NCBI RefSeq assembly: GCF_000337615.1
Contig: NZ_AOII01000067.1
Location: 1-64,000, forward strand
DNA from: Natrinema pallidum DSM 3751
Lineage (GTDB): Archaea; Halobacteriota; Halobacteria; Halobacteriales; Natrialbaceae
Reading direction: 5' to 3'
Length of the DNA stretch: 64,000 bases
Made by a program: the position numbers and the translations under genes. The notes under the pieces are model-generated. The model was not told the DNA's origin. It saw only the letters and a program-made list of their open reading frames with translations, and made no database searches. The stretch's first letter is position 1; every line of letters begins with the position of its first letter. Of the stretch, positions 28,840 through 51,544 are shown one piece after another.

Positions 28840-29745
28840 TCACTCTCTCAGTGAGAGGGGAGCGAGCGTCGCGAACAGAGCCTCCTCCGTTCGCACGACC
28901 TCGCTTCCCTGATCCGGAACCGTGTTTAGCCAGAGGTCGAACCCCGGATCGGCGGTGGGTTCGACTCCGTTATCGGCTGCGTCGTCCCGGTTGGACGACG
29001 GTTCGATCGCGTCGTCTTGTCCGGACGACGCTTCGATGGCCGATTCCTCGATTCCGAGGATAGCCGGCAGCCCTCTCTCGGGCGCGCCGAAGGCGACGGT
29101 CATCCCGTCGCGCTGGACGCGTCCGGCCAGCGTCTCGAGCCGTCCGACGGTGAGTTCATCACCGAATCGGGAGGCTGCAATGCGGACGCCGGCATCCTCA
29201 CGGCCGAGTGCTGCCTGCAGGTCCGTTTGCTCGATCGAAAGCCCCGGGAGGGGCTCGTCGACGAGCTTCGCTCGGACCGGTCGTCGCGAAGAGATCCTGA
29301 CGGTCACGCGCTCCCCCTCTTCGACCGCCATTTTCGGCGGTACGTTGAGGGAGATCGGGTGTTGCAGTCCGCAATTGACCCGGACGCGCCCTTCAGGTCC
29401 GACCTCGGTCACGATTCCTTGTCTTGACGACCCCGAACCGGTAGATTCGGAGCCGGTCTGTGACATGGCGCGGAGCGGCGGCAAGACGCCCGCGTACTCC
29501 AGTTCGTTCCGCATCCCCCATGCCTCGTTGCGGAGGTATGGGGGCGTTGCGGCGTACCGCAACACGGTTTGTACGAACCCGCCGTCGAACTGCCCGGTTT
29601 CCCCATCCCGATCGGGATAGACGACCAGGCGATCAGCCCGGAAGATCGTCGCCGCGCGGGCGACGTATCCGAGTTTACGAGTTGCCTCGCGTTTGTCTTC
29701 GGCTTCCCGGCTGAGCGACGACGGCACGAGTACGCTGACAGTCAT
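28840..29745 (-). CDS. SPOUT-type RNA methyltransferase (C9orf114/SPOUT1 family)
   Basis: A 301-residue protein of the Methyltrn_RNA_3 family, predicted to methylate RNA with a knotted SPOUT fold and an inserted OB-like domain. MTVSVLVPSSLSREAEDKRE and the YLRNEAWGMRNELEYAGVLP segment are family hallmarks; the inserted domain is about 110-165. A short acidic low-complexity stretch (about 240-270) is inserted before the C-terminal part. It is the first gene of the superoperon, a place this family often takes in archaea; the substrate is not certain. Confidence 0.88.
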   Translation of the reverse strand: MTVSVLVPSSLSREAEDKREATRKLGYVARAATIFRADRLVVYPDRDGETGQFDGGFVQTVLRYAATPPYLRNEAWGMRNELEYAGVLPPLRAMSQTGSESTGSGSSRQGIVTEVGPEGRVRVNCGLQHPISLNVPPKMAVEEGERVTVRISSRRPVRAKLVDEPLPGLSIEQTDLQAALGREDAGVRIAASRFGDELTVGRLETLAGRVQRDGMTVAFGAPERGLPAILGIEESAIEASSGQDDAIEPSSNRDDAADNGVEPTADPGFDLWLNTVPDQGSEVVRTEEALFATLAPLSLRE

Positions 29746-30046: not shown

Positions 30047-30117
30047 GCGCTGGTAGTGTAGTGGTATCACGTGACCTTGCCATGGTCACAACCTGGGTTC
30101 AAATCCCAGCCAGCGCA
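30047..30117 (+). tRNA. tRNA-Gly (anticodon GCC), copy 1
   Basis: The acceptor GCGCTGG pairs with CCAGCGC before discriminator A. The anticodon loop TTGCCAT reads U33-GCC, and the T arm is CTGGG-TTCAAAT-CCCAG. It has no intron and no encoded CCA. It is identical to the copy at 30389-30459, including nine bases after the 3' end. Confidence 0.96.
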
Positions 30118-30388: not shown

Positions 30389-30459
30389 GCGCTGGTAGTG
30401 TAGTGGTATCACGTGACCTTGCCATGGTCACAACCTGGGTTCAAATCCCAGCCAGCGCA
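30389..30459 (+). tRNA. tRNA-Gly (anticodon GCC), copy 2
   Basis: This copy is identical in all 71 positions to the tRNA-Gly at 30047-30117, and both are followed by CTTCTCCGA. Upstream sequences differ. Here a strong TATA element, TTATATATAAATAG, lies at about 30311-30324, so the copy may have its own promoter. The pair looks like a local duplication with a 342-base offset. Confidence 0.96.
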
Positions 30460-50257: not shown

Positions 50258-50398
50258 TCAGGTGAGTCGCTCGCCGTCGTCGTCGAACGCGAGTTCGCAG
50301 TCGTCACAGAGCCACCAGCCGACGAGCGGGTCGCGCCGGGCGATCTCCGCGCCGCACTCGAGACACCGCCGCGAGGGCTCGTCCGCAGGGGCGGTCAT
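50258..50398 (-). CDS. Small zinc-finger protein, 46 residues
   Basis: A short protein with two Cys pairs, CLECG and CDDC, separated by ARRDPLVGWWL. It is of the CPxCG-related small zinc-finger class that is common in haloarchaea. Its start overlaps the stop of the preceding zinc-finger gene by four bases, so the two are co-translated. Confidence 0.75.
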   Translation of the reverse strand: MTAPADEPSRRCLECGAEIARRDPLVGWWLCDDCELAFDDDGERLT

Positions 50399-50652
50399 TC
50401 GTTCGGCCCGCCGTGCTCGGACGCACCGCGGGCGCGCGAGATCAGCCCCGGCGGGACCGAGCAGCCACAGGGGCTGACCGTTCCCGTGTGGGGGCCGCTG
50501 GCGGTCACGAACGTCACGGGCTCGCCACAACTGGGACACTCTGGACGCGACCACGAGCCGTCGTCGCTCGTATCGGGCTCGTCGCTCCCGTCGGAGCCGC
50601 CGCTCCCGTCGAGGGCGTCACTCCCATCGGACGCGTCACCCATCGCGCTCAC
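50395..50652 (-). CDS. Small zinc-finger protein with acidic Ser/Asp-rich N-terminus
   Basis: An 85-residue protein. About 35 Asp/Ser/Gly-rich residues (beginning MSAMGDASDGSDALDG) precede PECPSCGEPVTFVT and SPCGCSVPPGLISR, a four-Cys zinc site. The ATG at 50643 is an alternative start. The gene diverges from the structured RNA element at 50788-50986. A decayed copy of its 5' part lies at 50982-51190, produced by a local tandem duplication. Confidence 0.72.
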   Translation of the reverse strand: MSAMGDASDGSDALDGSGGSDGSDEPDTSDDGSWSRPECPSCGEPVTFVTASGPHTGTVSPCGCSVPPGLISRARGASEHGGPNE

Positions 50653-50787
50653 CCCTCGAGCCCGACGGCGACGCGACGGCCGCTGGGACCGGCACGGAGC
50701 GGGCTGGGAACGGCGCGGACACCGCGGCGGTCCCCGCGGCGACTGCTGCGGGCAGCGCAGGGGCTAGTCGGAGGTGGCGATTCGGCT

Positions 50788-50986
50788 GTCGTGCGGGATG
50801 TTTATATCCCGGTAGAATGAACGGAATCATGCTTCCGAAATCCCTCGTGTGGGATTTGGAAGCCCGTCTCGGGTGATCCAGCACCCGGGGCGCTTTCGTA
50901 CGCCCCTCTCGGAGACGTGGCCTCCGCGTTAATGGTTGGTCTGTTGTTACGTATGCCTACTGTTTCCGGTGGGGAAGTTATCGCTC
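50788..50986 (+). ncRNA. Structured RNA element, copy A, with own TATA box
   Basis: TTTATAT at 50801-50807 would start RNA near 50828. The predicted RNA then forms a hairpin (arms 50831-50843 and 50851-50863). Next is a three-way junction with no unpaired bases between its first stems: 50865-50870 with 50912-50917, 50871-50875 with 50882-50886, and 50887-50892 with 50901-50906. A last helix is 50922-50927 with 50969-50974. The 199-base unit recurs at 51282-51480 with 12 substitutions and no gaps. Eight of the 11 changes in the RNA are in loops and two keep pairing. No protein frame is shared beyond the repeat. I do not recognise a known RNA family. Confidence 0.65.
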
Positions 50987-51190
50987 AGTTCGAGGCTGCT
51001 GGACGAGGAGTCGGTCCCCGGTCGATGGCTTTCTCCAGGCGGAATCTCCGTGCGGCGGCCTCGCTTCCTCGAGAGTGGTCCCCGCACAGGCACACCCGTT
51101 CGATGCCGCCGGAATCCACGAACTGTCGTCGTTCGCAGCACGGTCGTCGCCTCCGTCAGTTCCGTCACTCGCGTCGGACCCATCGCCCAT
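50982..51190 (-). pseudogene. Decayed copy of the zinc-finger gene
   Basis: From an ATG at 51190 the frame reads MGDGSDASDGTDGGDD and then DDSSW, clearly related to the intact gene (MGDASDGSDALDGSGG, DDGSW). The CPSCG zinc site is missing, apparently by internal deletion, and the frame then runs on into sequence antisense to the end of RNA copy A. The stretch between this ATG and RNA copy B also matches the corresponding stretch upstream of copy A. The whole is one arm of a tandem duplication of about 494 bases. Confidence 0.6.
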
Positions 51191-51281
51191 TGTGCTCCTC
51201 CCTCGAGTCGAAGACGGCGCGGAGACTGCTACGGGCAGCGCGAGGGCCGACCGGAGCCGGCGATTCGGCTTTCGCAGCAAG

Positions 51282-51480
51282 GTCGTGCGGGATGTTTATA
51301 TCTCGGTAGAATGAACGGAATCATGCTTCCGGAATCCCTCCTGTGAGATTTGGAAGCCCGTCTCGGGTGCTACTACACCCGGGGCGTTTTCGTACGCCCC
51401 TCTCGGAGACGTGGCCTCCGCATTAATGGTTGGTCTGTTGTTACGTATGCTTACTGTTTCCGGCGGGGAAGTTATCGCTC
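51282..51480 (+). ncRNA. Structured RNA element, copy B, with own TATA box
   Basis: This is the second copy of the unit at 50788-50986, offset by exactly 494 bases and about 94 percent identical. Its TATA box is at 51295-51301 and the expected RNA start is near 51322. The junction stems are unchanged. The pair at 51464 is C where copy A has U, turning a G-U into a G-C pair in the last helix. One change, at 51346, breaks a pair in the first hairpin. The copy ends 64 bases before the convergent asd gene. Confidence 0.62.
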
Positions 51481-51544
51481 GCCTCGAGCGAGCGCCGCAC
51501 CCGCGCTCGATCAACTGGGTGAGAAAACGGCGAGCACTCGACCG

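Follow-up and report, generated by a model that had tools for sequence, protein, structure and literature searches.

Organization of the twin loci

The window, by which we mean the whole stretch of 64,000 nucleotides of Natrinema pallidum DSM 3751 analysed here, carries two copies of an element whose parts are listed in Table 1. In the minus sense, a TATA-type promoter is followed by an RNA of ~100 nt containing a three-way junction and a hairpin, an AUG, a basic ORF and a zinc-ribbon gene, a strand and an order of parts that comparison between copies establishes. The two copies (50788-50994 and 51282-51488) extend over 207 nt, are 93% identical without gaps and show a spacing of 494, as a preliminary description of this DNA had reported for two near-identical units. 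What that description had seen as twins, however, are members of a multicopy family with adjoining zinc-ribbon genes.

Table 1. Predicted features of the two copies in the window, with the observations that define them.
Feature	Position	Strand	Basis or remark
TATA-type promoter, copy 1, CAGTAGGCATACGTAA	50947..50962	-	alignment of the copies
Leader RNA, copy 1, strand A to AUG	50828..50927	-	covariance model R1
Strand A, GGAGGCC, 5' side of junction-closing helix P2	50919..50925	-	P2 pairing in 106 copies; cross-family covariation
Junction hairpin P4, GGGGCG...CGCCCC	50887..50906	-	folding in all families
Junction hairpin P3, GGGTG, 6-nt loop, CACCC	50871..50886	-	loop varies between copies
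Strand B, GGGCTTCC, pairs with A or alternatively A'	50858..50865	-	permutation test
Hairpin P1, between B and A', AAATCCC...GGGATTT	50838..50857	-	folding, alignment
Strand A', GGAAGC, directly before the start codon	50831..50836	-	near-copy of A in all families
Leader ORF, copy 1, 64 aa, basic, MIPFILPGYKHPARQPNR...	50636..50830	-	stop beyond the zinc-ribbon ATG, overlap 8
Hairpin P5 in leader ORF, CGGGAUAUAAACAUCCCG	50794..50811	-	holds the plus-strand TATA string 50801-50807
CPxCG zinc-ribbon gene, 82 aa, CPSCG...PCGC	50395..50643	-	ORF and family comparison
Leader RNA, copy 2	51322..51421	-	covariance model R1, 65.7 bits on minus
TATA-type promoter position, copy 2, degenerate	51441..51456	-	alignment of the copies
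Truncated leader ORF, copy 2, 31 aa	51229..51324	-	11-nt insertion breaks the frame
Decayed zinc-ribbon gene, copy 2	50978..51190	-	acidic N-terminus retained, CPxCG/PCGC motifs gone

Judging from its sequence, copy 2 is a decayed tandem duplicate, which explains the exact spacing of the copies. Its leader ORF stops well short of the start of the zinc-ribbon remnant. The same pair is present in another genome (G008), where copy 2 diverged faster (84% vs 94%).

A zinc-ribbon ORF of 53-112 aa adjoins nearly every Natrinema copy of the element, on the minus strand and in a fixed orientation, with the consensus CPxCGxPV..T.TGP..G...PCGC.VPP. The protein is encoded in 87 of the 125 genomes of the family, at 1 to 31 copies each, and searches of Pfam, NCBIfam and PDB returned no family and chance-level matches only. 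At 50258-50398 of the window, also on the minus strand, a small ORF resembling a zinc finger (MTAPADEPSRRCLECGAEIARRDPLVGWWLCDDCELAFDDDGERLT) begins within the zinc-ribbon ORF, ~4 nt short of its end; this arrangement suggests that the leader ORF, the zinc ribbon and this third ORF may form an overlapping three-ORF operon.

The leader ORF opens at the AUG that ends the RNA and mostly comprises 31-64 codons (MIxYILPGYKRPARxxNR...). In 97 of 104 copies, the end of this ORF and the beginning of the zinc-ribbon gene share 4-14 nt (4 nt in 45, 8 nt in 42 and 10-14 nt in 10), and two different frames are used. Early stops interrupt its frame in 4 of 104 copies, whereas the two other frames show them in 35 and 13, and at four loci (L101, L117, L131, L143) leader peptide and zinc ribbon make up one continuous protein through in-frame fusion. 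The description of the element as a stand-alone RNA is hard to reconcile with an AUG placed directly at the RNA end and with this recurrent overlap.

Upstream of the RNA, the minus-strand TATA motif (family consensus CAGTAGATATAAGT) is weakened in this genome and reads GTATAAG in a sister genome. It occurs in most copies, at a constant distance of ~27 nt before strand A. We also found it 5' of zinc-ribbon genes that lack the RNA (L072a, L076, L079, L084, L085, L105, L121), and we therefore assign the motif to the gene and place the RNA within the gene's 5' leader. The covariance model R1 scored copy 1 at 66.0 bits (E 1.4e-14) on the minus strand vs 21.5 bits on the plus strand, scores on which the building of R1 from the minus sense has a bearing. 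The structure thus sits at a fixed position and strand, behind a promoter and directly 5' of a coding region, as a cis-regulatory leader does. As for a stand-alone RNA, a promoter on its own strand is not conserved with it, and the strand predicted to be transcribed does carry a consistent coding neighbour. We are highly confident that the twin element represents the structured leader of a minus-strand mRNA.

Conserved pairings and spread of the leader family

Compared with shuffled sequences, the 98-nt cores of the two copies folded well above chance on both the plus (z = -4.7 and -3.6) and the minus strand (z = -5.8 and -5.3), and the three-way junction of the preliminary description is real. 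Read in the minus sense, the RNA of the family consists of strand A (GGAAGCC..), a short helix CUC/GAG, P4 (GGGGCAU..AUGCCCC), P3 (GGGUG, a loop of 5-8 nt, CACCC), strand B (GGCUUCC), P1 and A' (GAAGCC), followed by the AUG.

Within Natrialbaceae, the covariation score and the count of double-change cells lay above all 500 shuffles, while the tally of pairs showing double changes (five) was reached by 119 of 500. This modest column covariation is due to the strong conservation of the helices, and the strong evidence comes from comparison between families. Other haloarchaeal families keep the TATA motif, A, P4, P3, B, A' and the AUG with different helix sequences: A and B read, among others, GGAAGACCGGUGCC and GGCACCGGUCUUCC with A' GAAGACC-AUG, GGGAAC.. 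and GGUUCCC with A' GGUAACCC-AUG, or GAAACC and GGUUUC with A' GAAACC-AUG. The P3 stem likewise shows compensatory replacement (GAGUG/CACUC, GCGUG/CACGC, GGGCG/CGCCC), and the three-way junction was recovered in nearly all of the 17 sequences that we folded. In a permutation test on 16 sequences, chosen and parsed by hand, both complementarities, A:B and B:A', proved sequence-specific, with none of 2000 permutations equalling the observed stem length. On this hand-picked set, a junction domain is thus combined with a mutually exclusive pairing that involves the expression signal, as in riboswitches.

The present genome holds 10 members of the family by blastn and 12 by covariance model. The unit was matched in 22 of the 41 genomes searched, and all 22 belong to the same genus. 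An exact core pattern retrieved 114 stretches from a collection of 84,980 species, and among the matches listed 80 of 80 were Natrialbaceae. Plasmid relatives were found in Natrinema, Natribaculum, Halopiger, Halostagnicola and Halomontanus. The preliminary description had proposed a covariance model, and R1 retrieved relatives across haloarchaea: the leader family extends throughout Natrialbaceae, where it can reach tens of copies in a genome, and other haloarchaeal families have relatives that are weaker and have diverged in sequence. The latter matches, which we parsed by hand (leaving out L227, which showed no structure), are individually weaker, mostly with E values of 1e-5 to 1e-11 per genome. 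The exact core pattern had no match in the viral contigs of IMG/VR. A viral origin was considered and rejected, the two matches of a sister pattern in a seemingly unrelated phage-type contig being taken as chance.

Rfam, searched with the copies and their relatives at gathering and permissive thresholds, returned no family (best chance match 18.6 bits, with 47 needed). The earlier view of a genuine structured RNA that evolves by structure and belongs to no recognized family is borne out. The window also holds a pair of tRNA genes, ~340 nt apart and equal in Rfam score (30047-30117 and 30389-30459). We regard the element as an undescribed cis-regulatory leader family, and we withhold the label of riboswitch, whose defining test is ligand binding.

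A putative translational switch and the genes it precedes

We favour, with moderate confidence, the reading of the element as a leader that acts in cis in the manner of a switch, probably on translation, and heads operons that join a basic peptide to a zinc finger of the Brz/Bp4 type. We infer that transcription would start ~27 nt downstream of the TATA motif, placing the 5' end of the RNA at strand A. Pairing of A with B would close the three-way junction with its hairpins P4 and P3; B could alternatively pair with A', the near-copy of A that directly precedes the AUG, and P1 would accompany this pairing. As long as A:B is in place, A' and the start codon would be free and ribosomes could translate the leader ORF. 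As the stop of this ORF overlaps the zinc-ribbon start, control exerted at the first AUG would be carried to the zinc ribbon by re-initiation. Conversely, if A were disengaged, whether by a ligand, a protein, an effect of salt or temperature, or 5' trimming, B:A' may close over the start region and both genes would be off. The mean helix energy is -15 kcal/mol for A:B and -7.6 kcal/mol for B:A'; being much the stronger, A:B would make ON the probable default, and switching would need help.

For the switch function taken by itself, we see the balance as even. The leader might instead be purely structural, serving 5' end protection, mRNA stability, translation efficiency or as the source of a trans-acting 5'-UTR-derived sRNA, with the likeness of A' to A stemming from shared ancestry or from the needs of a constant fold. 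The large excess in stability of A:B over B:A' and the retention of the leader upstream of several different small proteins would fit this explanation, to which we assign a minor but real probability. Against it, A' tracks B across families whose helices differ wholesale, and it abuts the AUG, as an expression platform would.

The leader of Natrialbaceae precedes mainly CPxCG zinc ribbons, some of them with a weak HalOD1-like domain ahead of the ribbon, and otherwise other small cysteine-rich proteins; outside Natrialbaceae and the family f17, it stands before further small, often cysteine-rich ORFs. That one leader stands in front of different small proteins argues for a signal common to them and not for autoregulation by a single protein. 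More tentatively, and with less than even confidence, we consider a haloarchaea-wide class of riboswitch-like leaders that would sense one common signal and set the levels of small zinc-finger regulators.

Several loci depart from the common layout. At L201-L204 and L210, the protein encoded behind leader and leader ORF matches HalOD1 weakly and is fused to a CPxCG zinc ribbon, and by this match these loci link the leader family to halobacterial output domains. In f17 (L214-L217, L228-L230, L234, L235, L240-L242), a genome can hold as many as 17 copies of a diverged RNA, which stands before proteins that match the SWIM zinc finger weakly; in several of the upstream regions, TTTAATACC and recurring motifs similar to ATAGGATATGG lie around the promoter. 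Furthermore, ~8 copies, L194-L200 in a Halopiger djelfimassiliensis-like genome (G052) and L208 in G008, share ~350 nt past the leader ORF (GGGGGATTCCCGCGAGG...) without a zinc ribbon; the L197 copy lies upstream of an aRF1-like release-factor gene.

Alternative readings and relation to known systems

A plus-strand TATA string does exist at 50801-50807, as the preliminary description had stated. It lies inside the minus-strand leader ORF, however, where it corresponds to the Gly-Tyr-Lys codons GGA TAT AAA, and it is kept in most, not all, Natrialbaceae copies. In Halovivax the P5 stem is retained with TTTTTG in place of TTTATA, at ~10 further loci the RNA is kept and the plus-strand motif is absent, and the string has no counterpart in other families.

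If both strands were transcribed, this element could drive an antisense RNA over the leader and its AUG, as Sok does on hok/mok. We consider this improbable, although it would be in keeping with the presence of a TATA-like element ~27 nt from the structure on either side, the two converging on it, and with the near-total conservation of codons 9-10 (AAA in 106 of 107, plus T), which goes beyond coding need. As in hok/mok leaders, an ORF overlaps the main small ORF, a foldback offers alternative pairings, and the units are multicopy. On the other hand, the products would be acidic, soluble zinc-ribbon proteins with a Brz-related layout, unlike hydrophobic toxins, and the plus-strand element is lost in several lineages. 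Moreover, P5 explains the conservation of codons 9-10 equally well: codons 8-13 are constrained at the nucleotide level, and pair 8.1-12.2 of this hairpin is G-C in 153, A-U in 60, G-U in 8 and A-C in 3 of 231 copies, with A-U compensating for the common G-C in 60.

That the plus strand yields a stand-alone non-coding RNA from 50801-50807, divergent from the zinc-ribbon gene, is very improbable, even though the string lies 27 nt before a stable hairpin that shows G-U pairs on the plus strand in some copies. In the minus sense, G-U-type pairs exceed A-C-type mismatches in both P2 (63 vs 11 in 106 copies) and P5 (28 vs 5 in 231 copies), a bias that favours the minus strand, and the conserved minus-sense TATA would be left unexplained. 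This divergent RNA was our initial reading; we dropped it in view of the TATA motif at genes without the RNA, the stop/start overlap of the leader ORF and the RNA copies that lack a plus-strand TATA. Minimum free energy was uninformative as a strand test: taken over all leaders, the predicted energies give the minus strand no advantage, the sense strand being lower in 44 of 106 and P1 alone leaning towards plus. Finally, we find it hardly credible that the unit is a dispersed repeat or a MITE-like mobile element that plays no part in the adjoining genes. The copy number, which can reach tens in a genome, and the ~350 nt shared without a zinc-ribbon gene by several Halopiger djelfimassiliensis copies might point to this, but the copies are highly diverged and yet keep structure, ORF and stop/start overlap, conservation is found only together with the coding unit, and viral contigs showed no exact core match.

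The switch-like leader that we favour stands before a layout known from Halobacterium salinarum, in which the pairs Brz-Brb and OE2447F-Bp4 each join a very short basic ORF to a small acidic protein of the CPxCG type, the two being co-transcribed, and in which Brz and Brb act on bop transcription (PMC3184054). Here too, a small acidic CPxCG gene (~53-62 aa in H. salinarum) is paired with a small basic ORF in one predicted unit, a likeness of gene layout and type. The bp4 ORF likewise comes first and shares 7 bp with the beginning of the zinc-finger gene. In contrast to our loci, the transcription start reported for bp4 leaves almost no 5' UTR and no structured leader was described (PMC3184054), and the bat/boa regulator genes that adjoin the H. 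salinarum pairs were not seen at the loci studied here.

In translational riboswitches that have a three-way junction as their aptamer, such as the TPP class, the 3' strand of the junction-closing helix can alternatively pair near the start codon, as we propose for strand B. The present leader differs in having no Rfam match, in preceding small zinc-finger genes, in its many copies per genome and in being archaeal; as of 2021, the fluoride riboswitch of Thermococcus was the only experimentally determined natural archaeal riboswitch (PMC8241225). L4-Archaeoglobi and other ribosomal-protein leaders are structured archaeal mRNA leaders as well, but they belong to different genes and showed no similarity to our leader in the Rfam scan. 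In the window itself, an L4-Archaeoglobi ribosomal leader was detected at 29297-29396 on the minus strand (75 bits), in this haloarchaeon.

Natural cis-regulatory RNAs are scarce in archaea, haloarchaeal mRNAs are mostly leaderless, and the products of tiny zinc-finger genes make up a large group of haloarchaeal micro-proteins about which little is understood. Here, a leader with an apparent expression platform recurs many times per genome in front of such genes, together with a basic-peptide ORF that automated annotation would be prone to miss. The family links to the Brz/Brb regulators of bacteriorhodopsin and could provide a concrete, mutable model for the control of haloarchaeal translation through a structured 5' UTR. 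If the more tentative reading of a haloarchaea-wide class with one common signal holds, it would reveal an RNA-controlled regulon of archaeal micro-proteins operating through start-codon sequestration and translational coupling.
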